64,000 nt of DNA, from the NCBI RefSeq assembly GCF_018408575.1, contig NZ_AP023418.1, positions 1,702,415 to 1,766,414 on the forward strand. The letters run 5' to 3'. Position numbers and translations under genes: made by a program. Positions 843 to 13,832 of the stretch are shown here, in pieces. The notes under the pieces were generated by a model. The model worked only from the letters and a program-made list of their open reading frames with translations, was not told the origin of the DNA and made no database searches. The stretch's first letter is position 1, and each line of letters opens with the position of its first letter. The DNA comes from Vescimonas coprocola. GTDB taxonomy: Bacteria; Bacillota; Clostridia; Oscillospirales; Oscillospiraceae.

Positions 843-2048
843 TTAGTTCTTGACTACGGTGTACCAATCGCCGTTCTGTTCAACATGGTAGCCGTCAGCA
901 ACGAAAACTTCGTTTTCGCCCATAGCGGGATGAGACGGGTCATACTTGTAGAAAGAACCACCACTGACGATGATCTTGGCAACGCCTCTTGCAGAATCGA
1001 TCACATTCAGCGTATTCGCCGGGGTAACCGCCTTGAAGGTACCGCCTTGAATCTCAATCGTAGCCTTATCGGTTGCATAGATCAGATCGCAAACGGGATC
1101 GTCTGCCGGAACGCCAACCTGACGGAAGTCACCGCCTTTGATGATAACCTTACTGGTGCCACCGGCTTCAACGGCCATGGCTGCATTCTGTCCGTCCGCA
1201 CCCTTGGTATACACGGCGTACACATCGGCGTCGATCGTAATCTGCGCTGTCTTTTCAGCCTGCACTGCACCATATCTGCCGTTGGCCTGAATATTCTTGG
1301 TGATTTCATGCGTGCCATGAGAAAAGCTCTCGGCATAAAACAGCTCCGGTGCAGCATGGTCGTATGTATTGTCATACGAATCGTTTTCATACTCTGCCTG
1401 CGTCGCATTCACGCTAATACCGAAAGAAAACTTTGATGCCCAATACGGATCGTTGTTTTTCGGATTTGCCTCGTTGCCGACTTCCGTGGGCATATACAGC
1501 ACCAGTGCATACGTCTTAGCATCAGCCTCAGGCGCAAGCATTACCATCTGATCTTCACCAATAATAGCACTGGAACCGATGGACTTAAGCGTCCTAGCTT
1601 CTGCATTCACAGCATTGATTGCCGCTTCACGATCTGCATATGCAGCAGTGGTTTCCACTGCGCCCAATTTCACATAGTTGCTGAGGTAATAAAACTCGCC
1701 TGCGACATTTTTTCCTCTGCCTTCATTGATGTTATACATACCAACGGTATACTTCAGAGCAAGTGTTCCTGCGTTTTTGACACGTAGATACACAACCTCT
1801 GTACGACCGGGTTCCCATACAGTGCTTTCCTCAAACAGCTTGGTCGTGTCGGTTACCTTGTTCCAGGTCTTAAAATCTGTGCTGTACTCCAACGCCACAT
1901 CCAGATTACCGGCCTGAATCTTGTTGACGCCGGTACTTGCGGTGTCGGTGAACCATGCGAAGGTAGCGCCTACCAGCATAGCCAGACACAGGACCATGGC
2001 CACGACGCTGCCCAGCAAGGCCCGTTTGGTGCTCTTGCGGTTTGTCAT
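843..2048 (-). CDS. Secreted TasA-like protein with SipW-type signal peptide and beta-helix-like tail (401 residues)
   Basis: Residues 1-51 form a SipW-cognate signal peptide: a basic N-terminus (MTNRKSTKRA), a hydrophobic core and a GATFAWFTDT cleavage region, then the AGNLDV segment that opens TasA/camelysin-like domains. Residues 52-235 read as the TasA-like domain (WEPG, LRVKNAGTLALKYTV). The last 150 residues carry short beta-strand repeats with GGxF turns, as in right-handed beta helices. The first 51 residues are identical to those of the 584-residue paralogue at 2419-4173, but the rest diverges. ATG at 2048 has GGAGGAGATACTT in front. It is probably processed by the SipW peptidase at 5714-6259 and assembled at the surface; the exact structural role is inferred. 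Confidence 0.8.
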   Translation of the reverse strand: MTNRKSTKRALLGSVVAMVLCLAMLVGATFAWFTDTASTGVNKIQAGNLDVALEYSTDFKTWNKVTDTTKLFEESTVWEPGRTEVVYLRVKNAGTLALKYTVGMYNINEGRGKNVAGEFYYLSNYVKLGAVETTAAYADREAAINAVNAEARTLKSIGSSAIIGEDQMVMLAPEADAKTYALVLYMPTEVGNEANPKNNDPYWASKFSFGISVNATQAEYENDSYDNTYDHAAPELFYAESFSHGTHEITKNIQANGRYGAVQAEKTAQITIDADVYAVYTKGADGQNAAMAVEAGGTSKVIIKGGDFRQVGVPADDPVCDLIYATDKATIEIQGGTFKAVTPANTLNVIDSARGVAKIIVSGGSFYKYDPSHPAMGENEVFVADGYHVEQNGDWYTVVKN

Positions 2049-2117
2049 AAGTATCTCCTCCTATTTTTTGCGTGTGGGGCTCTTGGCTGGCAGGCTTTTG
2101 TAGCGGGACGCTGCAAA

Positions 2118-2165
2118 GGGGAATACGGATCCTCACGTCGGGGCTGCGCCTCTCCTCAGGATGAC
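2118..2165. repeat. Dispersed intergenic repeat, copy 1
   Basis: A roughly 48-base GC-rich segment (GGGGAATACGGATC, ACGTCGGGGCTGCGCC, CCTCAGGATGAC) recurs in the leader of the paralogue at 4235-4282. Both copies lie between promoter and start codon. Confidence 0.7.
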
Positions 2166-2182
2166 ACTCCCTTTGAACACCC

Positions 2183-2222
2183 TTTATCGTTTCATTGAAA
2201 CGATAAAAAGCCCACGGGCTTT
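2183..2222 (-). promoter_or_regulatory. Two adjacent leader hairpins, copy 1
   Basis: A perfect inverted repeat (arms TTTATCGTTTC and GAAACGATAAA, 3-base loop, 2183-2207) follows AAAAGCCC/GGGCTTTT at about 2206-2222. Both are downstream of the promoter at 2245-2273, so they should be transcribed. The same layout occurs at 4302-4339. They could be an RNA attenuator or a DNA operator. Confidence 0.55.
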
Positions 2223-2244
2223 TGGCCGCACGCTTGATAGTTGT

Positions 2245-2273
2245 ATCATAGCACCGTGATCGGCAGAACGCAA
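2245..2273 (-). promoter_or_regulatory. Sigma-A-type promoter of the 401-residue SipW-type gene
   Basis: Minus strand TTGCGT, 17-base spacer, TATGAT. It implies a leader of about 190 bases. Confidence 0.65.
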
Positions 2274-2357
2274 GAGGTTTCTGCAAAATCTGTCGGTTTT
2301 TACAGGTCATTTACCGCTGTCTGCGGGTACCCACACAGGGGCCTTTCCAGTACCGCA

Positions 2358-2392
2358 AACAAGGGCCTCCGGCAATGCCGGAGGCCCTTGTT
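2358..2392 (-). terminator. Terminator after the 584-residue SipW-type gene
   Basis: A 16-bp perfect stem (AACAAGGGCCTCCGGC with its complement) and 3-base loop lies 26 bases after the stop at 2419. The T run is short (GTTTG on the minus strand). Confidence 0.75.
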
Positions 2393-2418
2393 CTTCTCAG
2401 ATACTTTCGGGAGAGCGC

Positions 2419-4173
2419 TTACTTGCTCACCGTGTACCAAGTGTCGCTGCCTTCAACAGTGGAGGTCGTGGTGCAGCCGGCACCCAGAGTGATCTTGCCG
2501 GTTTTGGCATTGACCGGGTCTACCGTTGTCACGCCGGGATTATAATTTTTGAAGCTGCCGCCGTTTACCGTAATGGTGCAGCCGGCGGTAGCATTATCCT
2601 GGTGGTTCAGCACATAATACGTCCCATTGCTGGGGGTGGCCGTCTCGAACTTACCGCCGTTGATGGTCACCGTAGCCTTGCTTCCACTGCTCATGCTGGT
2701 GTAGACGAAGATACAGGAGGTCCCCTCGCTGGTACCATAGAAATGGCCGCCGTTGATGGTCAGCCTGCCATAGTTGCCCGCACGAACCGCAGAGGTCACC
2801 TTGTTGGTGTAGGTCTTATCCGAGCCGTATACCGCGCCGGTCTGGCCCTCGCTGCTGTCATTGATAGTCAGGTTGCCCTTCTTGCCGCCGATATAAAACA
2901 CGCTGCCGTTATTAGGCTTTGCGCCCGCTGCATACTCCAGCCGGATGGAGTGGCCGTTCAGATCCACGGTCACTGTCTTGCCGGACAGATAGATCTCGTC
3001 GGTGACCACGATATCGTCCACCAGCTTGAAGTAGCCCTTGGCATCTTCCATCTTCAACGCCTGCTCACCGGTAGCCACCAGATAGGGGTTCGCCTTGGTG
3101 CCATTGCCGCCGTTGAAAACACTGCTGGAGGTCACCACAGTGAAGGGAGAGAAATCATCGGTGCTGAAGGTCAGCAGGCCGGTGGCAGCATCATAATAGT
3201 AGGTGTCGTTGGCCGCCTTGACCGCCTCGGCGCTCTCCGCCTTGGTCAGCGGTGTCTCGGAGTGATAGAACCCGATCACGTTCAGCTTCTTCTCCAGCTG
3301 CAGGGCGATGGTAAAGAACTTGCCGCCCGCTGCCGTGACCTTGTTGCCGTTCTGATCCTCCAGACGGACCTCGGTGGTAACGGCGTCGGTGCCGGTGACG
3401 ATCTCAATGTTGGCCGGAGTCTGCCCTTCTGTCTTGACCAGCGTCAGCTTTCCGGCATCGGTGCTGCCTGCGGGAATGGTAGCGATCACAGTGGGGTCCT
3501 TCTCACGGTCCTGGATCACCGTGTCGCCGTCGGTATTCACATCGCCCACAGCCACCACGGGATAGGTGGCGTTGGCATCGTAGGTGTTGTTGAAGCTGTC
3601 GCTCTCCACGGTGTTCTGGGTGGCCACCACGGTGATGGCAATGCCGTCGATAGACTCGTTCATGTAGTCGTTGCCGGCGGACTCCTGCATATGACCCTTG
3701 ATGGTGAAGGCGGCGCCCTCTTCCCCGGCCTTCAGCTGCATCTCGGTCAGGTTGATATCCGCATCATTGATGGTCCAGTCGATGACATCATTCAGCTTGG
3801 CGCTGCCGTTGATGCCGGTGATGGCCACCTTGTACTTCAGGGCCAGATTGCCCTTGTTCACCACACGCAGCTCCGGCAGCTCATAGGTGCAGCCCGGCTC
3901 CCACAGAACGGCCTCGTTTTCAGCGCCAGCGGCCTTCTTGAATTCCAGCTGCTTGCCCTGTGCATCGGCCCAGGTGGTGACATTGCCTTTCTCGTCCCAT
4001 GCAGTGGCGTACTGGAGCTGAACATCCAGATTGCCGGCCTGGATCTTGTTGACACCGGTGCTTGCGGTGTCGGTGAACCATGCAAAGGTAGCGCCTACCA
4101 GCATGGCCAGGCACAGGACCATGGCCACGACGCTGCCCAGCAAGGCCCGTTTGGTGCTCTTGCGGTTTGTCAT
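2419..4173 (-). CDS. Secreted TasA-like protein with SipW-type signal peptide and parallel beta-helix domain (584 residues)
   Basis: The first 51 residues match the neighbouring paralogue exactly and form the SipW-type signal peptide. Residues 52-215 are TasA-like (WEPGCTYELPELRVVNKGNLALKYKV). Residues about 215-355 form a beta-rich linker, ending SPFTVVTSSSVFNGGNGTKA. Residues about 365-560 are a right-handed beta helix with repeated turns (VTINGGKFET, ITVNGGSFKN, LTINGGHFYG) that follow a VDLNGHSI strand. This C-terminal half resembles bacterial surface adhesins. It has no sorting signal, so it is probably held in a fibre or released. Its own promoter, hairpin leader and terminator make it a monocistronic unit. 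Adhesion as a role is inferred from the fold. Confidence 0.8.
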   Translation of the reverse strand: MTNRKSTKRALLGSVVAMVLCLAMLVGATFAWFTDTASTGVNKIQAGNLDVQLQYATAWDEKGNVTTWADAQGKQLEFKKAAGAENEAVLWEPGCTYELPELRVVNKGNLALKYKVAITGINGSAKLNDVIDWTINDADINLTEMQLKAGEEGAAFTIKGHMQESAGNDYMNESIDGIAITVVATQNTVESDSFNNTYDANATYPVVAVGDVNTDGDTVIQDREKDPTVIATIPAGSTDAGKLTLVKTEGQTPANIEIVTGTDAVTTEVRLEDQNGNKVTAAGGKFFTIALQLEKKLNVIGFYHSETPLTKAESAEAVKAANDTYYYDAATGLLTFSTDDFSPFTVVTSSSVFNGGNGTKANPYLVATGEQALKMEDAKGYFKLVDDIVVTDEIYLSGKTVTVDLNGHSIRLEYAAGAKPNNGSVFYIGGKKGNLTINDSSEGQTGAVYGSDKTYTNKVTSAVRAGNYGRLTINGGHFYGTSEGTSCIFVYTSMSSGSKATVTINGGKFETATPSNGTYYVLNHQDNATAGCTITVNGGSFKNYNPGVTTVDPVNAKTGKITLGAGCTTTSTVEGSDTWYTVSK

Positions 4174-4234
4174 AATATCTGCCTCCTATTTTTTGCGTGT
4201 GCGGGTCTTGGCCGTTGGGCTTTGTGGGGGATGC

Positions 4235-4282
4235 GGGGAATACGGATCGCCACGTCGGGGCTGCGCCCCTCCTCAGAATGAC
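4235..4282. repeat. Dispersed intergenic repeat, copy 2
   Basis: Near-identical to 2118-2165 and in the same place between leader hairpins and start codon. Confidence 0.7.
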
Positions 4283-4301
4283 GCCTTCTTTGACCCCTCC
4301 C

Positions 4302-4339
4302 TATCGTTTCTCTGAAACGATAGACGCCCATGGGCGTCC
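4302..4339 (-). promoter_or_regulatory. Two adjacent leader hairpins, copy 2
   Basis: TATCGTTTC / GAAACGATA with a 3-base loop at 4302-4322 and a perfect 16-base palindrome GACGCCCATGGGCGTC at 4324-4339. Arms and order match copy 1 at 2183-2222. Confidence 0.55.
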
Positions 4340-4361
4340 CGGCGCGCACTTTTACGCAGGC

Positions 4362-4390
4362 ATATTACCACTTATATGGACACAATGCAA
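4362..4390 (-). promoter_or_regulatory. Sigma-A-type promoter of the 584-residue SipW-type gene
   Basis: Minus strand TTGCAT, 17-base spacer, TAATAT; implies a leader of about 180 bases. Confidence 0.7.
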
Positions 4391-4454
4391 GTCCCTTTTT
4401 GCCAAAAACTGTCATTTTTTCTGGAATTTTCTGCATCCCATTCCCCGGCACGAC

Positions 4455-4490
4455 AAAAGGGCCTTGCTCCTCGCCGCAAGGCCCTTATTT
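4455..4490. terminator. Bidirectional terminator
   Basis: AAGGGCCTTGC / GCAAGGCCCTT with an 8-base loop; T-rich on both strands. It follows the histidine kinase remnant on the minus strand. Confidence 0.7.
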
Positions 4491-4510
4491 TTCTGGAAAC
4501 TTCGCTGCCA

Positions 4511-5080
4511 TTACCGCAGCTGCGCCGTGAACACGATCTCACCCGGCTGAGGGCATTGGGCCCGGATGAAGCCGTGGTGTCCCTCGGCAATGCTCCGGGC
4601 GATGGACAGCCCCACACCGAAGCTGCCGTCGGCGGAGCGGGCCTGATCCGACCGATAGAACCGGTCAAAGAGCTTCTCTGTCTCCCCCTCGGCCAGCGGT
4701 GTACAGGCATTGCTGCACCGCAGGACGACGCCCCGTTTTCCCTTCTCCAGCACAAACCGGATGGGTGTCTCCGGCAGGGCATACTTCACGGCGTTATCCA
4801 GCAGGATAGACACCAGCTGCCGCACGGCGTACTCATCGCCGCAGTAGGTAAGCCCCGGCACGATAGCAAGCTCCAGCGGATGGCCCTGAGACCGGGCAAA
4901 ATCCCGGAAGGACTCCGCCGTCTCCTCCACCGCCTCGCTGACGGCGAAGTCCGACAGCTTCAGCGGCGACTCCTCCTCGTCCATGCGGGAGAGCGTCACC
5001 GTGGTCCTGCGGAAGCAGAAAAAAAGCCTGACCTCTTCTCTCTTCCCTCTTTTATAAACAGGACAGGGTCCGGTTCCCAA
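4511..5080 (-). pseudogene. Sensor histidine kinase remnant: catalytic ATPase domain only
   Basis: The last 150 residues are a clear HATPase_c domain: N box (LLDNAVKYALPE), FDRFYRSDQ, and the G2 box GVGLSIARSIAEGHHG. The conserved phosphoacceptor histidine and all transmembrane and sensor segments are missing. The frame turns into unrelated residues upstream of about LSRMDEEES, and its nominal ATG lies inside the 23-bp hairpin at 5056-5107. No response regulator gene is adjacent. I read this as the 3' end of a deleted two-component kinase. An alternative is a standalone anti-sigma-like ATPase, but the two-component-style sequence and missing start argue against it. Confidence 0.75.
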
Positions 5081-5107
5081 GGGAACCGGACCCTGTCCTG
5101 TTTTTTT
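5056..5107. terminator. Very long perfect hairpin with T run on the plus strand
   Basis: A 23-bp stem (arms begin AAACAGGACAGGGTCC) with an AA centre is followed on the plus strand by T7. On the minus strand the tail is weaker (TTTAT). No plus-strand gene ends here. It may terminate the XRE gene on the minus strand or block antisense reading. Confidence 0.6.
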
Positions 5108-5182
5108 GACGCCTCATCTACTCGCCAAGGCTGCGGGAGAACCCCCCATCCTCACAGGATGGAGAGCTGTCCCGGATCCTCG

Positions 5183-5404
5183 TCAGCCTCTGGGCCAGTC
5201 CAGATCTCTGGGCAGCCCCAGAATGTAGTCGGCGCTGACGTGATAATACCGGCACAGCTTCTCCAGCTTTTCGATGCCCATTTCGCTGGTACCGTCCCGC
5301 CAGCGCCGGATCTGCTTGGTGCTGACGCCGATGACCTTCGCCAGATCCTGCACCTTGGTGTCGCTGTCCTCGATAATGGCATCAATGTTTGGATATTGCT
5401 TCAT
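5183..5404 (-). CDS. XRE-family DNA-binding regulator (73 residues)
   Basis: The protein is one helix-turn-helix domain: helices around DLAKVIGVSTKQIRRWRDGT (HTH, residues 20-39) and GIEKLEKLCRYYHVSADYILG, the usual end of XRE repressors. There is no second domain, so it is a minimal Cro/CI-type regulator. ATG at 5404 follows AAGGAGG by six bases. It is divergent from sipW, and the space between holds three copies of GACATATATGTC overlapping the sipW promoter. The simplest reading is that it controls the fibre operon and possibly itself; binding has not been shown. Confidence 0.8.
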   Translation of the reverse strand: MKQYPNIDAIIEDSDTKVQDLAKVIGVSTKQIRRWRDGTSEMGIEKLEKLCRYYHVSADYILGLPRDLDWPRG

Positions 5405-5478
5405 GTGCGACCTCCTTACGGCCCATTGTGTCTCATCGACCTTTTGTCGAATTATGTCGAAAATTTTACACTTACAAC

Positions 5479-5539
5479 GACATATAAGTCTTGACTTTGG
5501 ACATATATGTCATTTATAATATGTAAAGACATATATGTC
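5479..5539. promoter_or_regulatory. Three operator-like 12-base palindromes in the XRE/sipW intergenic region
   Basis: GACATATAAGTC (5479-5490, one mismatch), GACATATATGTC (5500-5511) and GACATATATGTC (5528-5539). Starts are 21 and 28 bases apart. The middle copy fills the spacer of the sipW promoter; the others flank it. They are probable sites for the adjacent XRE regulator. Confidence 0.65.
5491..5520 (+). promoter_or_regulatory. Promoter of the sipW fibre operon
   Basis: TTGACT, 18-base spacer, perfect TATAAT at 5515-5520. The leader to the sipW ATG is about 185 bases and contains the third palindrome. Confidence 0.75.
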
Positions 5540-5713
5540 CCACATTTGTTTGTTCGTTCTGCCCTCATCACCGTCATTGTTTGACATTCTCCACGCAATA
5601 TGACTGGAAATTTCAGGACAGTTGCTCTGTTTCGACGTTCTTCATGAGCAAAAGATGCTTTAATAGTTCTGCACCCGCCAAGTGCTCCAAGCTATCTCCG
5701 GGAGGAACCCCCT

Positions 5714-6259
5714 ATGACCGCAAAAAAGCTCTTACAGATCATCAGCACCATTCTGGTGGCGCTGGTAGTACTTCTGGCCGTGGCGCTGGTCGGCGTCCGA
5801 CTGGCCGGCATCCGCACCTTCACCGTTCTGTCCGGGTCCATGGAACCCACTTACCACGTAGGCTCCCTCATCTACGTGAAAAAAGTGGACCCCACCACCA
5901 TCCAGCCGGGACAGGTCATCACCTTCATGCTGGATGAGAACACCGTGGCCACCCACCGGGTGGTGGAGGTGGTCCCCGACGAGGACGATCCCTCCACTCT
6001 GCGCTTCCGCACCAAGGGCGACGCCAACGACGCCGAGGACGGCAGCCTCGTCCACTACAAAAACGTCATCGGCACCCCGGTGTTTGCCATTCCCAAGCTG
6101 GGCTACGCAGCCAATTACATCCAGCATCCCCCCGGCCTGTACGTGGCCATCTCCGCCGGGGCCGTCCTGCTGCTGCTGACCTTCCTGCCGGACCTGCTCT
6201 CCGGCGGCTCCGACAAGGGGCAGGGCAAGCGCATCCGTCAGGACAGTCAAAAGGCATAG
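5714..6259 (+). CDS. sipW: SipW-type signal peptidase I (181 residues)
   Basis: This is an ER-type (S26B) signal peptidase. An N-terminal membrane helix (residues 8-33) is followed by VLSGSMEPTYHVGSLIYV with the catalytic serine, and ATHRVVEV with histidine in place of the lysine of ordinary bacterial enzymes, the hallmark of SipW. The GDAND-type box (TKGDANDAEDG) and a second membrane helix near the C-terminus complete the family layout. In Bacillus SipW cleaves the TasA and TapA precursors of biofilm fibres. Here it heads an operon whose next members carry matching signal peptides. ATG at 5714 has GGGAGGAA in front. Confidence 0.9.
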   Translation: MTAKKLLQIISTILVALVVLLAVALVGVRLAGIRTFTVLSGSMEPTYHVGSLIYVKKVDPTTIQPGQVITFMLDENTVATHRVVEVVPDEDDPSTLRFRTKGDANDAEDGSLVHYKNVIGTPVFAIPKLGYAANYIQHPPGLYVAISAGAVLLLLTFLPDLLSGGSDKGQGKRIRQDSQKA

Positions 6260-6326
6260 ATCCGTCGATCCTGCCGCAAGGCTCACCATATCATTTGTTA
6301 TCATTTTTTATGCAGGAGGAAAAACC

Positions 6327-7067
6327 ATGAAAGCAAGGAACCGCATCAAACCCCTGTTGACCCTGTGCTGCGCCCTGCTGCTGGTAGCCGCCGGTGTGTT
6401 CGGCACGCTGGCCTACCTCACCGGCACAGACACGGTCAACAACACCTTCACCGTCGGCAACGTGAAGATCACGCTGGACGAGGCCAAGGTGACCACCGAC
6501 GGCACGCCTGTGGAGGGCGCTGACCGTGTGAAGGCCAACGAGTACCATCTGCTCCCCGGCCACACCTACACCAAGGACCCCACCGTCACCGTTGAGGAGG
6601 GCAGCGACCTGAGCTACGTCCGCATGAAGGTCACCTTCAACAACGCCAAGGCCATCATCGCCCTGTGTACTGACCCCGAGTTTGCCGAGGACGGCCCCAC
6701 CGGCGTGGAGAACGCCTATCCCCTGATCCGCATGGTGAAGTTTGTGGAAGCCAATGCCCCCAAGTGGGACGGCATCATCCCCGATAACATGGTGGAGACA
6801 GAGGAAATGCTGGCCAATGCCAAGTACTTCGTCTACGACAAGCCCACTGACACTCTGACCTACTATTTCTATTACAACGAGACCGTTGCCGCCCCCGACG
6901 GTGATGTGGTCCTGCCTGTCCTGTTTGACAAAGTGACCCTGCCCGAGTGGGTCACCAACGACCAGCTGGCCACTCTGGAGAATTTCCAGATCACCGTGGT
7001 GGCCGAGGCCATTCAGGCCGACGGCTTCGCCAATGCCGGCGCCGCTTGGGCCGCCTTCAACGGCTGA
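6327..7067 (+). CDS. SipW-dependent TasA/camelysin-like secreted subunit (246 residues)
   Basis: A SipW-type signal peptide covers residues 1-30 (basic start, hydrophobic core, GVFGTLAYLTGTDTVNNTF), followed by the TVGNVKITLDE motif that opens TasA-like domains. The rest is a beta-rich domain with no repeats or membrane anchor. There is a GGAGG ribosome site six bases before ATG 6327. It is the first structural gene after sipW, which fits an abundant fibre or matrix subunit. Camelysin relatives were once called metalloproteases (M73), but no HExxH motif is visible. The family is well supported; polymer formation is inferred from the setting. Confidence 0.8.
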   Translation: MKARNRIKPLLTLCCALLLVAAGVFGTLAYLTGTDTVNNTFTVGNVKITLDEAKVTTDGTPVEGADRVKANEYHLLPGHTYTKDPTVTVEEGSDLSYVRMKVTFNNAKAIIALCTDPEFAEDGPTGVENAYPLIRMVKFVEANAPKWDGIIPDNMVETEEMLANAKYFVYDKPTDTLTYYFYYNETVAAPDGDVVLPVLFDKVTLPEWVTNDQLATLENFQITVVAEAIQADGFANAGAAWAAFNG

Positions 7068-7154
7068 TTTTTCCCCCCCCGGTTTCGACGGCACATGGGC
7101 TGCGCCCCACGCCGTGGAAATAAATCATAGTTTGTAAGAAAGGAAGAAGCGAGT

Positions 7155-7682
7155 ATGAAAAAGAAAACTCTGGCGCTGGTTCTGGCTCTGACCCTGTTGG
7201 TGGCCGGTGTCGTCGGCGGCACGCTGGCTTGGCTGACCGATCAGACCGCCGAGGTGAAGAACACCTTCACCGTGGGCGATATCAACATCGGCCTCACCGA
7301 GACCACCGCAGACTACAAGATGGTTCCCGGCAACACCATCGCCAAGGACCCCACCGTCACCGTTCAGGCCAACTCTGAGGCCTGCTGGCTGTTCGTGCAG
7401 GTCACGAAGTCCGAGAATCTGGACACTTTCATCACCTATGCCATCGCAGAGGGTTGGACGGAGCTGCAAGACGGCGTTTACTACCGTGAGGTTCCCGCCT
7501 CCGCCGCCGACCAGACCTTCTCTGTGCTGGCAGGTAACACCGTCACTGTGAACAACACTGTTACCAAGACTATGCTCGAAACCGCCAAGACGGATGCCCC
7601 CACCCTGACCTTTAAGGCCTACGCCGTGCAGAAGGACAATGTTGCCTCTGCCTCCGATGCTTGGGCCAAGGTCAACCCCTAA
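7155..7682 (+). CDS. SipW-dependent TasA-like secreted subunit (175 residues)
   Basis: The signal region is short (MKKKTLALVLALTLLVAGVV, then GGTLAWLTDQTAEVKNTF). TVGDINIGLTET follows, with a compact beta-rich domain ending AYAVQKDNV. It is smaller than its neighbours and has KDPTVTVQANSEA, like the KDPTVTVEEGSD segment of the gene before it, so the two probably share a core fold. ATG 7155 follows AAAGGAAG. The 87-base space upstream contains a hairpin-forming stretch (7088-7117), and the stop of the preceding gene is followed by TTTTTCCCCCCCC. A minor subunit or cap is possible; no direct evidence. Confidence 0.75.
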   Translation: MKKKTLALVLALTLLVAGVVGGTLAWLTDQTAEVKNTFTVGDINIGLTETTADYKMVPGNTIAKDPTVTVQANSEACWLFVQVTKSENLDTFITYAIAEGWTELQDGVYYREVPASAADQTFSVLAGNTVTVNNTVTKTMLETAKTDAPTLTFKAYAVQKDNVASASDAWAKVNP

Positions 7683-7742
7683 CCAAGTGATCCCTTGCAC
7701 ATTCTGATACCCAAAAAATCAAACAAAAAGGAGAGCAATTAC

Positions 7743-8540
7743 ATGAAAAAGAAGATCACTGCCCTGTTCCTGTGCGTGGCGCTGGCCGCCATCGCCATCG
7801 TCGGTGCCTCTCTGGCCTACTTCACCGACACCGACAACGAAACCAATACCTTTGCCGTGGGCAACGTCAAGATCGACCTGATCGAGCAGGAGCGTGGCGA
7901 GAATGGCCTTCAGCCCTTCACGCAGAACAAGAAGCTGTCCCCCATCGTCGGCTCTGCACAGGGCGAGAAGGATGAGCTGGGTATGCCCACCGCCAAGAAC
8001 TACGTGGACAAGATGGTCACCGTCCAGAACACCGGCTCCGAGAAGGCCTATATCCGTGCCTACTTCGCCATCCCCGCCGCTCTGGACGACGGCTATGAGA
8101 CCTTCAACGCCGGCATGAACGTCCTGCACTTCAACTTCGGCAACAAGGTCGTTGACGGCAATATCACCTCCACGGAGGGCGTTGAGTGGAACTGGATGCA
8201 TGACGGCAAGTGGAACTACTTCGAGACCACCATGGACGGCATCAAGTACAATGTCTACTTCGCCGACTACTATCAGGCCGTTGAGGCCGGTGCCACCACC
8301 GAGCAGCTCGTTCAGGGCGTGTATCTCGACAAGTCCGTCGATTTCGGCAAGGATGGCAAGTGCTACGCCTTTGGCAAGGAAGTCACTCTGGACGAGGGCT
8401 GGGATTGGAGCAGCGTCTCCTGCCCCGTGTTCGCCGTAGCCTGTCAGGCAGAGGGCTTTGACAGCGCTGCCGAGGCTATGGATGCCGCCTTCGGCGCCAA
8501 CTACAATCCTTGGGGCGGTACCGCCACCAACTGGCAGTAA
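7743..8540 (+). CDS. SipW-dependent TasA-like secreted subunit (265 residues)
   Basis: ATG 7743 is chosen because AAAAAGGAGAGC lies in front of it and the SipW-type signal peptide starts there (MKKKITALFLCVALAAIAIV, then GASLAYFTDTDNETNTF). AVGNVKIDLIEQE starts the TasA-like domain. Residues 90-110 contain a KMVTVQNTGSEKAYIRAYFAI strand pair, the pattern for subunits that pass a strand to a neighbour. Several Trp residues occur in the C-terminal half (EWNWMHDGKWNYF). It ends the first half of the operon: its stop is followed by TTTTCCCCCCC and then the hairpin array at 8610-8833. Probably a main fibre subunit by size and position. Confidence 0.8.
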   Translation: MKKKITALFLCVALAAIAIVGASLAYFTDTDNETNTFAVGNVKIDLIEQERGENGLQPFTQNKKLSPIVGSAQGEKDELGMPTAKNYVDKMVTVQNTGSEKAYIRAYFAIPAALDDGYETFNAGMNVLHFNFGNKVVDGNITSTEGVEWNWMHDGKWNYFETTMDGIKYNVYFADYYQAVEAGATTEQLVQGVYLDKSVDFGKDGKCYAFGKEVTLDEGWDWSSVSCPVFAVACQAEGFDSAAEAMDAAFGANYNPWGGTATNWQ

Positions 8541-8609
8541 TTTTCCCCCCCAACAGGAAGCAGATCGGCTTCCCTGACTCTACTATCTCCTCCCTATTTT
8601 TTTGCGGCA

Positions 8610-8833
8610 CGGGTCCTGTGACCCGACCAACCCCGACACGCCTGTTACCAGCGGGTCGTGTCGGGTGGCAGAAAGCCCCCCTATAGGCTCCCTGCCGCCC
8701 CGGTGAACCTGTTACCAGCGGAAACACCGGCGGCCGTGGCCTCTTAGAGGCCCGGCCAAACCAGTGCAGCTGTTACCGCAGCTGCACCGGTTTGACCGCT
8801 GCGGTCAACCACCTTCTCTGTCCTCCCTATGGA
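8610..8833 (+). other. Array of seven or more consecutive hairpins inside the fibre operon
   Basis: The 324-base gap between two subunit genes holds hairpins at 8610-8625 (CGGGTC/GACCCG), 8632-8665 (CCCGACACG/CGTGTCGGG), 8667-8696 (GGCAG/CTGCC with an inner GCC/GGC), 8694-8734 (GCCGCC..CGGTG/CACCGGCGGC), 8738-8752 (GGCCTC/GAGGCC), 8758-8793 (15-base arms, one mismatch) and 8792-8808 (TTGACCG/CGGTCAA), with a weak CTCC/GGAG at the end. CTGTTACC recurs in loops at 8642, 8709 and 8770. No run of T follows the last stem, so this is not a simple terminator. It may be a structured intercistronic RNA. Confidence 0.6.
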
Positions 8834-8864
8834 GGCTGACCATAGACAGGAAAGGAGCAACCAC

Positions 8865-9422
8865 ATGAAACGAAAGCTGTTATTACTGTCGGTGCTGGCC
8901 ATCTGCGTGGCCACGCTGGCAGCCGGAACGCTGGCGTATTTCAGCGCCGACGGAACGGCACGCAATGTCATCACCACCGGCAATGTCTCCATTGCTGTGG
9001 AGGAGTGGGCGGATGCGGATAAGACCCAGCCCTTCGAGGATCTTACCGGCATCATGCCCGGCACCACCGTCACCAAAATTGCCGAGGTCCGCAACACCGG
9101 CGAAGCCGACGCATGGATCCGTGTCCGCCTCACCAGCGACATCCGCCTCACCGGCGACGGCACGCCGGACCCCTCGCTGGTAAAGCCCGACCTCAACACC
9201 ACCGACTGGACGCTGGGTCCCGACGGCTACCTCTACTGCAACAAGGCCATCCGCCCCGGCGAGACCACCGCCCCTCTGTTCACCTGCGTCACCTTTGACG
9301 CCGGTATGGGCAACGAGTATCAGGATGCCACCGCCACAGTCCATGTGGCCGCCGAGGCTGTCCAGACTGCCAACAACGGCGTCACCGCTCTGGAGGCGCT
9401 GGGCTGGCCAACGCAGGGTTAA
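8865..9422 (+). CDS. SipW-dependent TasA-like secreted subunit (185 residues)
   Basis: ATG 8865 follows AAAGGAG by seven bases; a longer frame to 8829 lacks a ribosome site. The signal peptide reads MKRKLLLLSVLAICVATLAA with GTLAYFSADGTARNV after it, then ITTGNVSIAVEEW. The domain has a TKIAEVRNTGEADAWIRVRL segment typical of this family. The gene ends 13 bases before the start of the large vWA protein, with the AAGGAGG for that gene overlapping its stop. It therefore begins the second part of the operon after the hairpin array and may be a dedicated partner of the adhesin. Confidence 0.75.
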   Translation: MKRKLLLLSVLAICVATLAAGTLAYFSADGTARNVITTGNVSIAVEEWADADKTQPFEDLTGIMPGTTVTKIAEVRNTGEADAWIRVRLTSDIRLTGDGTPDPSLVKPDLNTTDWTLGPDGYLYCNKAIRPGETTAPLFTCVTFDAGMGNEYQDATATVHVAAEAVQTANNGVTALEALGWPTQG

Positions 9423-9435
9423 GGAGGTGCGGCAC

Positions 9436-12400
9436 ATGAAAAAAATGCGGCATATGAAGAGAAAAGCCCTTGTGGCGCTGGTGCTGTCTGTCACCATGCT
9501 GCTGACCCTGATGCCCGGTCTGGTCTTTGGTGTCTCCGACGATCAGGGTGACCCGGACACCGTCAGCTCCTCCATCGACTACCCCACCGTGAATTTCACC
9601 GACGTGGCCCCCTTCCTGCCCCCGGTCAGCGGCACTGCCCTCCGGCGCTCCCCGGCCCGTGACGCCGGTGATGCCAATACCGGCAGCGATAACGGCAATA
9701 ACGGCATGGTGGTCAACAAGACCTCCGTTTATAACGAGGAGACCGGCGCCTATGACATTACGCTGGAGGCCTACGCCACCGGCAGCAAGGTCATCAGCAC
9801 CGTCACCAGCGATGTTCCCACGGACGTCATTCTGGTTCTGGATCAGTCCGGCTCTATGGGGGATGATATGGGGCAACTGGTCTACACGGCCTACTCCGGC
9901 AATACCCGTCAGAACAGTGATCTCTATGAGAAGCAGGATAACCTCTGGTATAAGCTCTCCGATGGCAGCTATGTCGCCGTTACCGTCACCTCCCGGAACG
10001 ACAGCATCCAATACACCCCCATCACCAACGGAAGAAATAACGAGGATTATGATTGGTGGTCCGACTCAACGTACACAAATCTCTGGGATAACAAAGACAA
10101 CCTTTACGCCAAGATCAATGGCGAATACCAGAAGGTCACCGTGAGTCGTTCCGGTTACGGAAACAACCGCACCTACACCTATACCCTCCCGGATGGCACG
10201 CAGATCGCATCCAGTCGAGGCGATGATGCAGCACCTACCATCAGCAGCACAGACGATGGCTATCTCTATCTCGCATCCATCGATACCACTCAGACCGTCT
10301 ATACCTACACCTATACCGATGCCAACGGCACGGTGCAGACCATCGGCACCTCCACAGGCGACAGCACCAACTTCACGGCTGCCACGCTTTACAGCCGCAG
10401 CACCACAGATAGCGGCATCACCCGTCTGGAAGCCCTGAAAAATGCCGCCGCCACCTTTGCAAATGCCGTGGAGGAGAAGGCCAAGGGCGCTGACGGTACC
10501 CTCGGCACCGAGGACGACATCTCCCACCGCATCGCCGTGGTGGGCTTCGCCAGCAAGTCCGGCTACGGCGACAACACGGAGCTGCTGTCCATCGCCGGAA
10601 GCAACAGCGGCAGCGTGGGTGTGGCCTATCACAACATCACCGACCAGAACCTCAAGGACGTTCTTCAGGAAGTGGACACCTCCGCCGGTCAGACTATGGT
10701 CTCCACCGCCATTGATGCTCTGGCCGCCAGCGGCGCCACCCAAACGGATCTGGGTCTGGACATGGCCCAGCGCATCCTCTCCGCCAACCCCGTGCAGCCT
10801 AACGAAACGCACAACCGTGTGGTCATCGTCTTTACGGACGGCGCCCCCACCAGCTTCAACGGCTTTGAGAAGGATGTCGCCAACGACGCCATCACCCATG
10901 CCGGCGCCATCAAGACCGCCGGAGCCACCGTCTACACCATCGGCATCTTCGCTGGAGCCGACGCCACTAGTGCCGGCACCGAGCCAAGCGGCGACCTTGG
11001 TCAGAACAGCAGCTCCCTGAACAGCGCCTGCAACTGGTTCATGCAGCAGGTGTCCTCCAACAACGGCACGCCCTGCACCCCCAGCTACTACTTGTCTGCG
11101 GCGGACGCCGGTTCCCTCAGCAACATCTTCCAGCAGATCTCCGACAACATCGAGACCGGCGGCTCCTCCTCCACCCTGACGGAGGAATCCGTAGTCCGGG
11201 ATATCATCTCCCCCCAGTTCACCCTTCCGGCCGGAAGCACCGCCTCTGATATCACGCTGGAGACCTACGCCTGCACCGGCAAGGACGGCGACACCTACAC
11301 ATGGCGCCAAAACGACACCGCCATGGGCGCCACTGCCACGATAGACGGCAATAACGTCAGCGTCACAGGCTTTGACTTCTCCGATAACTACGTGGGCACC
11401 GTTACGAATAACGGCATCGTCACCTACCGGGGCCATAAACTGGTCATCCGCTTCAGCGTCAAGCCCCAGCCCGACTTTCTGGGCGGCAACAATGTCCCCA
11501 CCAACGCCGGGGCCGGCGTCTATGAAAACAAAGACTCCGAGACCCCTGTCCGGGAGTTCCCCCAGCCCACGGTAAACGTCCCCATCCGGCCCGTCACCGT
11601 TGCAGCGCAGGACTATAACGTCTATCTGCTGGGCGGTCTCACTGCCAGCCAGCTGCAAAGCGACTCCACTGTGCAGGTAGGCAGCGTTAAGCTGGATCTG
11701 ACCAAGGCCACCGACTCCGATCACCCCTACGGCTTGGAGCCGTGGCAGACCGCCTACGTGGATATCACCGTCTCCCTCACAGGCCCGGACGGCAGCCCCG
11801 TCACTGACCTGACTCAGCTGCGGGAGGACACCTCCTACACCGTCTCCGTCACGGTATCCCCCAAAACGGAGCCGCAGGCAGACGTCAGCGGCACACCGGC
11901 CAGCGAGCAAACGGGCAGCGCCACCGGCAAGGTCAACGTCTTTAAACCGACGCTCACCTACGAGGACGGCACCGTCTACTACGGCGACACCTTCGATAGG
12001 GCCACGCTGCCCGGTTACCGCACCTCCACCAGCTGGTTCCACGGCACCACCGAGGATACCACCGTAACCATGACCGGCACTGCTCCGGCGCTGACCTACG
12101 GCTACACCTACGACACCACCCTTCTGACGGACATCGTGAACACCAAGCAGGACATCCCCGTGAAGGCCACCATCTCCATCGGTGACACCAACATCACCGG
12201 CGACACCACCTTCCTGCACACGGACTGCGCCGGAGAGACCTGGAGCCACACCAGCGGCGACCCCGCCTTCCTGCTCCACGTCAGGACCTGCGCCCTGACC
12301 GTCACCAAGACCGGCGGCGCTGACGGTGAGCCCTATGTGTTCAACGTCTACCGCAACGGCGATCTCTACACCCAAGTCACGGTGGTGGGCAGCAGCAGTG

Positions 12401-12621
12401 TCTCCCTCTATGAGCTTCCGGTGGGCAAATACACCATTGCGGAGGACACCGGCTGGAGCTGGCGCTATGACGCCGCCTACGACCCCGATAAGCCGGACGG
12501 CTGCACCCTCACCGCCGACCACAATAGCGGCAGCATCACCTGCACCAACACCCTGAAGAATGACCGCTGGCTCAACGGCTTCAGTGATGTCATCGCCAAC
12601 ATCTTCGGAATCCGACACTGA
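9436..12621 (+). CDS. Large secreted von Willebrand factor A adhesin (1061 residues)
   Basis: ATG 9436 has AAGGAGG eight bases upstream. A signal peptide covers about residues 1-35. A vWA domain lies at about 110-590: DVILVLDQSGSMGDD holds the DxSxS part of the metal-binding MIDAS site and VVIVFTDGAPTSF its distal Asp. A long beta-rich region with Thr/Asp-rich strands follows, and the last 120 residues contain a Cna-B/SpaA-like domain (LTVTKTGGADGEPYVFNVYRNG). It ends WLNGFSDVIANIFGIRH with no sorting signal and no terminal membrane helix. As in pilus-tip adhesins, MIDAS proteins bind host or matrix ligands. Here SipW-type subunits surround it, so it is probably the tip of that fibre; attachment is not shown. 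Confidence 0.8.
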   Translation: MKKMRHMKRKALVALVLSVTMLLTLMPGLVFGVSDDQGDPDTVSSSIDYPTVNFTDVAPFLPPVSGTALRRSPARDAGDANTGSDNGNNGMVVNKTSVYNEETGAYDITLEAYATGSKVISTVTSDVPTDVILVLDQSGSMGDDMGQLVYTAYSGNTRQNSDLYEKQDNLWYKLSDGSYVAVTVTSRNDSIQYTPITNGRNNEDYDWWSDSTYTNLWDNKDNLYAKINGEYQKVTVSRSGYGNNRTYTYTLPDGTQIASSRGDDAAPTISSTDDGYLYLASIDTTQTVYTYTYTDANGTVQTIGTSTGDSTNFTAATLYSRSTTDSGITRLEALKNAAATFANAVEEKAKGADGTLGTEDDISHRIAVVGFASKSGYGDNTELLSIAGSNSGSVGVAYHNITDQNLKDVLQEVDTSAGQTMVSTAIDALAASGATQTDLGLDMAQRILSANPVQPNETHNRVVIVFTDGAPTSFNGFEKDVANDAITHAGAIKTAGATVYTIGIFAGADATSAGTEPSGDLGQNSSSLNSACNWFMQQVSSNNGTPCTPSYYLSAADAGSLSNIFQQISDNIETGGSSSTLTEESVVRDIISPQFTLPAGSTASDITLETYACTGKDGDTYTWRQNDTAMGATATIDGNNVSVTGFDFSDNYVGTVTNNGIVTYRGHKLVIRFSVKPQPDFLGGNNVPTNAGAGVYENKDSETPVREFPQPTVNVPIRPVTVAAQDYNVYLLGGLTASQLQSDSTVQVGSVKLDLTKATDSDHPYGLEPWQTAYVDITVSLTGPDGSPVTDLTQLREDTSYTVSVTVSPKTEPQADVSGTPASEQTGSATGKVNVFKPTLTYEDGTVYYGDTFDRATLPGYRTSTSWFHGTTEDTTVTMTGTAPALTYGYTYDTTLLTDIVNTKQDIPVKATISIGDTNITGDTTFLHTDCAGETWSHTSGDPAFLLHVRTCALTVTKTGGADGEPYVFNVYRNGDLYTQVTVVGSSSVSLYELPVGKYTIAEDTGWSWRYDAAYDPDKPDGCTLTADHNSGSITCTNTLKNDRWLNGFSDVIANIFGIRH

Positions 12622-12638
12622 GAAAGGAGGAACTGTTT

Positions 12639-13193
12639 GTGGCACGCAGAAAAGATCCTTCGCCCCGGAAACCGGGAGCACTGCTTCTGACGCTGGTTCT
12701 GCTGGCGCTGGCCCTCACCGGCGCCACGCTGGCGTATCTCATCACCCATACGGACCCCGTCCCCAACCGGTTCACTCCCGCCCATGTGTCCTGCAACGTC
12801 ACGGAGGACTTTGACGGCACGACCAAGAAGAACGTCAACGTCACCAACACCGGTGACATTGACGCCTACCTCCGGGTGAAGCTGGTGACCTACCGGGTCA
12901 ATGACGACGGCCAACACATCGGCGGCACGGCAGCCATCCCCGCCTTCACCCCCGGCGACGGCTGGGTAAAGTATGGCGACTATTACTACTACACCTACCC
13001 CGTGGCCCCCGGTCAACAGCCCGAAACCCCGCTCATTGACAGCCTGACCCTCACCGGCAGCTACAGCGATGCCGACGGCGGCAAGCAGGCGCTGGAGATC
13101 ATGGCGGAGGCTATCCAGAGCGCCCCGACAGACGCCTTGGGTCAGGCTTGGGGCGTCACCATCACGCCGGGCCGAGTGGCCCAGTATCAGTAA
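12639..13193 (+). CDS. SipW-dependent type secreted protein, GTG start (184 residues)
   Basis: The start is a GTG at 12639, eight bases after AAAGGAGG. The N-terminus is unusually basic (ARRKDPSPRKPG) before the hydrophobic core and GATLAYLITHTDPVPNRF, the SipW-type cleavage area. The FDGTTKKNVNVTNTGDIDAYLRVKL segment is family-typical. It is 17 bases after the adhesin stop and 12 bases before the next gene, so it is translated with them. A linker or base-proximal subunit is a reasonable guess from its place between the adhesin and the anchored protein. Confidence 0.7.
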   Translation: MARRKDPSPRKPGALLLTLVLLALALTGATLAYLITHTDPVPNRFTPAHVSCNVTEDFDGTTKKNVNVTNTGDIDAYLRVKLVTYRVNDDGQHIGGTAAIPAFTPGDGWVKYGDYYYYTYPVAPGQQPETPLIDSLTLTGSYSDADGGKQALEIMAEAIQSAPTDALGQAWGVTITPGRVAQYQ

Positions 13194-13205
13194 GGAGGGG
13201 ACGGC

Positions 13206-13832
13206 ATGAAACGAAAAACCATCTGTTCTCTGGCGTTGACGCTGCTGATGCTCCTGTCATGCCTCTGCGCCGCCTATGCGGACACCGGCTCCGTCACCTA
13301 TGACGGCGACGCTCAGAGCTTCGTGTTCCTCCCCGGCAGTGACTACTCCCCCTCCGACCTGTTCCCGGACTTTAAGGGCGTCATGCCCGGCGACCGGCTG
13401 ACCCAGACCCTGCGTCTGCGAAACGACAGCGACCATCGGGTGCGGCTGTACCTGCGCTCTCTGGGGTCCGAGTCCGGTTCCGAGGAATTTCTCTCCCAGA
13501 TGACCCTGACGGTGCAGACTCCCACCTCCTCTCTCTTCGATGCGCCCGCCCACGAGACGGCACAGCTGACGGATTGGACGGAGCTGGGGACCATCGCCCC
13601 CGGCGGCGATCTGGAGCTCACCGTGACCCTGAACGTCCCCCTGACCATGGGCAATGACTTCCAGTCCGGCATTGGCTATCTGGACTGGCAGTTCAAGGCC
13701 CAGGAGCTGGAGGACCCCACACCCCCCACCGGCGACACCTACGCCCCCACCCTGTGGCCGCTGATGGCCACGCTCTCCATGGGCGCCATCGCCTTCCTCC
13801 TGAGCCGCAGAAAGCACCGGGAGGAGCCGTAA
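13206..13832 (+). CDS. Membrane-anchored secreted protein with PPTGD-type C-terminal signal (208 residues)
   Basis: A conventional signal peptide ends at CAAYA (residues 1-25), not a SipW-type one. Residues 30-165 form a beta-rich domain with VMPGDRLTQTLRLRNDSDHR, similar to extracellular strand-swap domains. The tail has PTPPTGDTYAP, a hydrophobic helix and SRRKHREEP, the pattern of sortase sorting signals with PPTGD for LPxTG. It is the last gene of the operon (GGAGGGG before ATG 13206). I infer that it anchors the fibre to wall or membrane. A sortase would be needed for wall linkage and none is in the window. Confidence 0.7.
   Translation: MKRKTICSLALTLLMLLSCLCAAYADTGSVTYDGDAQSFVFLPGSDYSPSDLFPDFKGVMPGDRLTQTLRLRNDSDHRVRLYLRSLGSESGSEEFLSQMTLTVQTPTSSLFDAPAHETAQLTDWTELGTIAPGGDLELTVTLNVPLTMGNDFQSGIGYLDWQFKAQELEDPTPPTGDTYAPTLWPLMATLSMGAIAFLLSRRKHREEP

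Follow-up and report, generated by a model that had tools for sequence, protein, structure and literature searches.

A 64,000-nucleotide stretch of the Vescimonas coprocola genome (contig NZ_AP023418.1, positions 1,702,415 to 1,766,414; hereafter the window, to which all plain coordinates refer) contains an operon at 5714-13832 made up of sipW, S3, S4, S5, S6, a gene for a large protein with a von Willebrand factor A (vWA) domain, S7 and ANC, in that order. An earlier note on this DNA had suggested a distinct surface fibre with a tip adhesin. Our analysis favours a more specific version of that idea: the operon probably makes a donor-strand fibre of the TasA/camelysin superfamily, with a plugged, exchangeable tip adhesin and an acceptor-only wall anchor. 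A conserved gene order, the pairing of the adhesin's C-terminal dock with S7, co-diversification of the parts and a donor-like adhesin tail all speak for it. Two elements of the original idea, export of the adhesin by SipW and the inclusion of the flanking genes HX1 and HX2 in the set, found no support.

From these genes we infer a fibre, strand exchange between its subunits, the order of its parts, its linkage to the wall and a role in adhesion. SipW would free the N termini of S3-S7, and the donor segment ([WYF][LF]T[DS]...N-T-F) laid bare in this way would enter the groove of the next subunit. The outer end would be a large exported adhesin without a SipW leader, here the vWA protein, whose CnaB-like domain and C-terminal copy of the donor segment would plug into S7. 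The shaft of S3, S4 and S5 would come after S7, and S6, as the last donor, would enter ANC. With its subunit-like domain and without a donor segment of its own, ANC would terminate the chain, and its sorting signal would fix it to the cell wall. S3-S7 have donor segments, the adhesin ends in a donor-like tail and the subunit-like anchor lacks a donor segment; the simplest arrangement is then a chain running from adhesin tail to S7, shaft, S6, ANC and wall. The dock and S7 genes together would form a cassette whose body differs from one bacterium to another.

Large proteins that share a dock

The large protein is encoded at 9436-12621 on the plus strand and comprises a non-SipW leader, the vWA domain, a stalk and the C-terminal dock (12193-12621). 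It had been described as a 1061-residue protein with a vWA domain containing a metal-ion-dependent adhesion site (MIDAS), and this was confirmed. The protein scores above the cut-off of two Pfam vWA models and holds DQSGSM, Thr435 and Asp468 of a MIDAS; Asp136, Ser138, Ser140, Thr435 and Asp468 are invariant in an alignment of six vWA proteins. Among solved structures, the vWA profile comes closest to 2ww8 (E 1.6e-11) and 3txa (E 5.7e-11), both listed as cell wall surface anchor proteins; these are the pilus tip adhesins RrgA and GBS104. Mfa5, a minor fimbrium subunit, is also among the solved relatives listed.

In an order-wide search, the match of many genomes to the vWA-protein profile is confined to its final 110-130 positions and is often right next to a match to S7. 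The flanks at these places hold a large open reading frame (ORF) with the conserved C terminus LPxGxYTVxE..WSWRY...N...WLxG.....NxF and an otherwise variable sequence. Of 68 docks, 63 carry this signature, whereas none of 1389 other gene calls does (gene calls in the flanks of relatives come from a simple ORF caller). The bodies differ: 28 of the 68 dock proteins have a vWA domain, 35 have none and 5 are truncated, while in one locus (L120) the vWA lies on a separate ORF that precedes the dock ORF. Pfam was applied to 26 dock proteins, mostly chosen for having no vWA, and found InlB-type repeats (Flg_new) in 15, a vWA with a GBS104-like domain in two (L069, L076), and, in a single protein each, BNR (sialidase-like) domains (L066) and GH20. 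The BNR protein, 2443 residues long with its BNR domains N-terminal (L066:2395-9726), would place an enzyme in the proposed tip position.

The dock itself, which includes the WSWRY motif, may be of the CnaB/SpaA type. Lys958 is conserved in 55/68 docks, Glu1003 in 63/68 and Asn1038 in 58/68 (window numbering), and the full Lys/Glu/Asn (or Asp) triad is found in 54/68. Lys/Glu/Asn is the triad with which CnaB domains form an isopeptide bond, and a CnaB-like dock with such a bond is possible. The Pfam SpaA model matches 4 of the 26 dock proteins, with no match to the window protein at E<=1.

Pairing and co-diversification of dock and S7

A dock ORF lies directly upstream of S7, on the same strand, for 68 of 76 distinct S7 genes (those of at least 60 bits with an upstream gene call; three more are at contig edges). 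Conversely, of 73 distinct dock proteins with a downstream gene, 68 have S7 as that gene, at a median gap of 17 bp. Five dock places were taken because the S7 search gave no match there: S7 is present at two (L137, L138) and absent at two (L139, L140), and the last (L141) is a contig end. In the window, S7 (12639-13193, plus strand; 184 residues), the proposed tip adaptor, directly follows the dock gene.

The two proteins also diversify together. Across the 30 loci with all genes, dock and S7 distances correlate beyond the other genes with a partial r of 0.55, and S6 and ANC distances with a partial r of 0.48 (0/300 permutations for each). The cross pairs show no such signal (S6-dock 0.01; S7-ANC -0.01); S6-dock and S7-ANC are usually neighbours, and S6 and ANC flank the dock-S7 pair on opposite sides. 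Both signals recur in 29 loci with one near-duplicate left out, in the 15 vWA-only loci (where SipW-first subunit, 0.49, and dock-SipW, 0.32, also rise) and in the 14 non-vWA loci (where dock-first subunit, 0.41, and S6-SipW, 0.30, also rise). Plain identity distances give 0.53 for dock-S7 and 0.46 for S6-ANC (0/500 each). These permutation tests leave shared ancestry in. The vWA label requires 3 changes on the tip tree (0/500 shuffles as low) and 8 on the base tree (64/500 shuffles as low, mean 10.1); with few changes on the first and more on the second, tip type looks to have been exchanged between bases.

A donor-strand-like tail

TasA subunits are linked through an N-terminal strand, residues 28-38, with Phe29, Ile32 and Phe39 making hydrophobic contacts to the next subunits, as described in PMC9674648. 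The SipW clients here bear [WYF][LF]T[DS]-x(5,6)-N-x-F at the place matching this donor strand. The Asn is at +9 in 65 and at +10 in 52 of 126 shaft segments, and in the commoner motif L+1 and F+11 lie as far apart (10) as Phe29 and Phe39 of TasA. The chain of the window's vWA protein continues 23 residues past Asn1038, and this end holds the donor-strand-like tail WLNGFSDVIANIFG (12568-12609, plus strand; residues 1045-1058). Over the 68 docks, Trp1045 is conserved in 66, Leu1046 in 61, Gly1048 in 53 and Asn1055 in 65.

The similarity was assessed with a position-specific donor score trained on 126 shaft segments (207 anchored by regular expression, from 272 subunits). Training left out S7 above 90 bits and S6 above 100 bits and used only segments with N at +9 (65) or +10 (52) and F, I or V two positions on. 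The best-scoring window of the whole dock protein falls within the last 52 residues in 43/68, compared with 3.8 expected from length. When scored at its Trp, the tail is the top window of the whole protein in 40/66 and in the top three in 51/66. Permuting the columns of the score gives a mean top-window count of 0.1 (maximum 8), and permuting them with the first two columns kept gives a mean of 3.3 (maximum 20; 0/300 reach 40). The Trp-to-Asn spacing of the tail is +9 or +10 in 63/66, as in the subunits. In the window's protein the best window anywhere is likewise the tail, WLNGFSDVIANIF, with a score of 7.7.

A score of at least 5 is reached at the N terminus by 60/68 S7 and 33/38 S6 proteins, and by 0/48 anchors (first 90 and last 60 residues scored). 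Dock proteins reach it at the N terminus in 0/59 and at the C terminus in 29/68, and unrelated gene calls in 8/823 and 6/823, respectively. The dock tail is similar to the donor segment that shaft subunits carry at the N terminus and shows both of its spacings.

Peptidase, subunits and anchor

The sipW product (5714-6259, plus strand) matches TIGR02228 with 109.8 bits (cut-off 51.85). Among aligned SipW proteins from related loci, Ser42 is invariant in 40 filled rows and His81 in 43/43 rows, and the prediction of a SipW-type peptidase with Ser-His catalysis is upheld on both counts. The match to NF046067, the Bacillus SipW equivalog, is 106 bits and below the 190-bit cut-off. A second SipW-like signal peptidase (62.8 bits) is encoded elsewhere in the genome (L002, C1:2449287), together with a TasA-like protein of 179 residues and an APPTGD-tailed protein, and this appears to be a separate, smaller fibre-like locus.

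Seven proteins had been credited with SipW-type leaders. Six of them pass the cut-off of TIGR04088 (cognate_SipW), S3 barely so (19.5 bits against 19). The seventh, S7, has a sole match, to TIGR04090, below cut-off (38.1 against 60 bits), and it is counted as a SipW-type client through homology, because it is related to S6 by profile-profile comparison (hhalign 99.8%) and shares the post-leader segment of the other clients. Neither the vWA protein nor ANC matches TIGR04088, and the suggestion that the adhesin is exported via SipW was not borne out. Simple leader tests fire rarely, in 16/68 S7 proteins for a strict leader expression and in 17/59 dock proteins for a crude test of a hydrophobic run followed by AxA; the ordinary Sec leaders of the dock proteins were therefore judged by eye and by their missing SipW motifs.

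Three of the subunits are shaft-type and pass TIGR04088: S3 (6327-7067; 246 residues; donor segment YLTGTDTVNNTFTVG, donor score 25.5), S4 (7155-7682; 175 residues; WLTDQTAEVKNTFTVG, 37.9) and S5 (7743-8540; 265 residues; YFTDTDNETNTFAVG, 30.6), all on the plus strand. S6 (8865-9422, plus strand; 185 residues), which is above cut-off for TIGR04088 and PF12389 and co-diversifies with the anchor, is the proposed base adaptor. The nearest named family for S3-S7 is BsaA (TIGR04090), with all five below its 60-bit cut-off and S6 best at 49.3 bits. No TapA (TIGR04087) match above the 80-bit cut-off was found among the ten proteins scanned, the only match listed being S6 at 12.2 bits. PF12389 (M73/TasA-like) is above cut-off in HX1, HX2 and S6, just below it in S4 and S5, weak in S3 and absent from S7.

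ANC (13206-13832, plus strand; 208 residues) had been called an anchor protein, and its sequence agrees with this: it has a non-SipW leader, a TasA-like domain (hhalign 97.1% to S6), no donor segment and a TPPTGD sorting signal (13719-13736) followed by a hydrophobic and basic tail. A hydrophobic-basic tail is found in 44/48 anchors. The genome has one match to the sortase model PF04203, at C1:562491, outside the window and about 1.1 Mb from the operon; no pilin sortase is found in the locus. With xPxTG motifs in 28 of 48 anchors, the common tail and one sortase in the genome, the anchor is probably linked to the cell wall by sortase. Ten anchors without xPxTG (L034, L054, L074, L083, L087, L090, L091, L095, L107 and L119) share L[IE][QHD]TGQ[LV]NWP ahead of the hydrophobic tail, which is perhaps an alternative sorting signal.

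Distribution among relatives

Comparison across relatives bore out the locus, its order being kept over genera and families. The vWA protein occurs in 11/149 genomes, the window's own included (E<=1e-10), four of which have it without the operon (L038, L039, L041, L043). Wherever the contig was long enough to be read, the order sipW - shaft - S6 - vWA - S7 - ANC was seen in the same genus (L034, L035), in another genus (L037) and in another family (L044, L045, both from a wider search); in L040, sipW was not recognised. Matches to an S7 profile built from vWA-bearing loci were found in 74/394 genomes of the order (E<=1e-5, a level that includes sister subunits and gives 4 matches in the window's genome) and in 34/391 of the class (E<=1e-10), and flanks were taken at the 39 strongest places only. 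Dock and S7 are carried by, among others, Cuneatibacter caecimuris, Merdimmobilis hominis, Hespellia stercorisuis and Pseudoflavonifractor phocaeensis.

Four loci (L056, L058, L071, L075) have two sipW genes upstream of dock-S7, with an anchor-like gene between them in three of the four, and may be mixed or fused fibre operons. Another (L142, G441:C33) is an operon with sipW, twelve consecutive genes matching subunit models and an APPTGD anchor.

Weighing the proposed fibre

Several results weigh against the proposed fibre. The predicted structure of S7 is confident (pLDDT 94.5) but has no strong match among solved structures in the Protein Data Bank (PDB), and the likeness of S6 to AbpX, a solved TasA-type fibre protein that gives the sole two rows at E<=10 when the S6 profile is compared with the PDB, is weak (E 0.14-0.34). 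The set is not always whole: a recognised anchor is near 48/66 dock-S7 pairs, S6 near 36/46 and sipW near 41/46, and xPxTG is seen in only the 28/48 anchors already mentioned. A recognised dock is not directly upstream in 8 of the 76 S7 genes. In these cases another gene is upstream (L047), the dock is one gene further with sipW between (L069), no dock is seen (L077, L079), or a large protein is present whose end is unmatched by the dock model (L081, L121, L123 and L125, of which L125 has a vWA). In 26/66 dock proteins some other window ranks above the tail, and the tail of the window's own protein is moderate (7.7, compared with 25-38 for S3-S5). A score using only the +10 spacing places 21 best windows near the C terminus, where 200 column permutations give a mean of 4.9 and a maximum of 22; the claim rests on the two-spacing test. 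Smaller correlations, dock-SipW (0.24; 7/300) and dock-first subunit (0.20; 4/300), accompany the main ones, and some of the dock-S7 correlation may reflect joint transfer, the two genes being neighbours. Lastly, TapA, which is donor-only, is reported near the cell, so the polarity proposed here would be reversed relative to B. subtilis.

In one alternative, the large protein is a TapA-like initiator or chaperone that starts the fibre via its tail and stays near the base, its vWA or repeat body holding wall or matrix. According to PMC10151520 and PMC9674648, TapA initiates TasA fibres by donating its N terminus and is located near the cell, and the dock protein is donor-only in the same way. 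We nevertheless regard an initiator as unlikely. A regular expression for a sortase-type tail finds none in the dock proteins (0/68), a hydrophobic-basic C-terminal tail is present in only 2/68, a separate anchored protein co-diversifies with S6, the subunit of the other end, and the bodies of dock proteins are varying binding or enzyme modules.

Alternatively, the adhesin could be an independent secreted or surface protein that is simply co-expressed, its tail being a retention or sorting signal for something else. The tail is short and conserved, as a sorting signal would be, and the genome offers both a second signal-peptidase locus and one sortase. Such independence seems to us quite improbable in view of the near-universal pairing with one SipW-type subunit, S7, the joint diversification of dock with S7 and not with its other neighbour, and a tail that agrees with the donor segment in letters and spacing. 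A pilus of the sortase type that has a vWA tip of the SpaC/RrgA/GBS104 kind and happens to use SipW would fit the matches of the vWA profile to 2ww8 and 3txa and the CnaB-like last domain, but it is hardly credible when 0/68 dock proteins have a sorting signal, S3-S7 end without one (by eye) and the sole sortase match lies about 1.1 Mb away.

Neighbouring genes and control region

The ORFs of the earlier note were all found at the coordinates it gave, including a minus-strand pair, HX1 (843-2048; 401 residues; TIGR04088 27.7 bits) and HX2 (2419-4173; 584 residues; 29.1 bits). Each has a leader and a TasA-like N-terminal domain (PF12389 above cut-off), and HX1 ends in a variable C-terminal part. 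They have their first 51 residues in common, with 62 identical bases from the start codon. The pair had been described as beta-helix proteins; above cut-off, Pfam matches only the N-terminal M73 part. Neither belongs visibly to the conserved set, both being absent from the two best matches listed per gene (ten flanks; the larger sets were not scored). They bear a donor-like segment (score 8.0) and may decorate the operon's fibre. Of 12 TIGR04088 matches above cut-off in the genome, six are in the window and six elsewhere, at C1:260669, 701196, 1998426, 2112833, 2133146 and 2377910 (L004-L008, L011). Five of these, when read, have the HX leader and N-terminal domain with differing C-terminal parts; the frame of the sixth (L011) holds one TAG, and no ORF there passed the filter.

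Upstream of sipW, a likely promoter can be recognised by eye (TTGACT at 5491-5496, 18 bp, TATAAT at 5515-5520). It is flanked by three GACATATATGTC palindromes within 5479-5539, one with 1 mismatch; 0 shuffles reach 3 matches, and the two exact copies are the only ones in the whole 2.56-Mb genome. A small HTH/XRE-like ORF (5183-5404, minus strand; 73 residues; likeness judged by eye), divergent from sipW, is a natural candidate for the regulator. Beyond it, a sensor histidine kinase fragment (4511-5080, minus strand; HATPase_c only) starts in a strong hairpin at about 5060-5100 and may be what is left of a local two-component system comparable to BsaS in C. perfringens.

Relation to known fibres and significance

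Like the tapA-sipW-tasA system of B. subtilis, the operon combines a SipW peptidase with an N-terminal donor segment on secreted beta-sandwich subunits. It differs in its several subunits, its dedicated adaptor, the donor-like tail at the C terminus of its adhesin and the sorting signal of its anchor, and no TapA is above cut-off among the ten proteins scanned. The C. perfringens sipW-bsaABCRSD operon, which makes the BsaA polymer, is also a clostridial sipW operon with several secreted proteins (PMC7395162, in the part available); it was compared by description only, and 'von Willebrand' and 'adhesin' appear 0 times in the main text of that paper. The TasA-CalY-CapP filaments of B. cereus are likewise a SipW-processed heteropolymer with an accessory protein, but that protein, CapP, is no large adhesin in the available part of PMC13082335, where 'vWA', 'von Willebrand' and 'tip' appear 0 times. 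The archaeal bundling pili AbpA/AbpX are TasA-like donor-strand fibres (PMC9674648), with the caveat that the sequence likeness of AbpX to S6 is the weak one given above. RrgA and GBS104, the vWA tips of sortase pili, and Mfa5 from the fimbriae of P. gingivalis share a MIDAS vWA in a long exported protein, but the window protein has a donor-like tail and no sorting tail. RrgA, GBS104 and Mfa5 are attached by other means, and we know of no tip system for AbpA/AbpX pili.

TasA, CalY/CapP and BsaA fibres are of a known kind, and no tip adhesin for any of them was found in the open-licence full-text literature. We accordingly see the operon as a variant within that kind, whose plug mechanism, if demonstrated, would be new. 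Fibres of the TasA type are familiar as polymers of the biofilm matrix, and whether or how an end bears specific adhesins is a question unanswered in the literature found. We lean, with some reserve, towards the wider view that donor-strand fibres of Clostridia display exchangeable tip proteins, among them vWA adhesins, repeat proteins and even a sialidase-like enzyme, by means of a C-terminal plug made up of a CnaB-like domain and a tail mimicking the N-terminal donor strand of the subunits. On this view, the plug would travel together with its adaptor subunit, as one cassette, from one fibre operon to another, and the fibre would be a general display platform with a donor-only tip and an acceptor-only wall anchor. 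The proposal reduces to a 25-residue tail and one small subunit and is directly testable. If true, it would give gut Clostridia a further kind of pilus-like organelle among Gram-positive bacteria, one in which tip and base are both defined, and would account for a class of large surface proteins that lack wall-sorting signals. A short C-terminal tag could then also be used to attach other proteins to such fibres.

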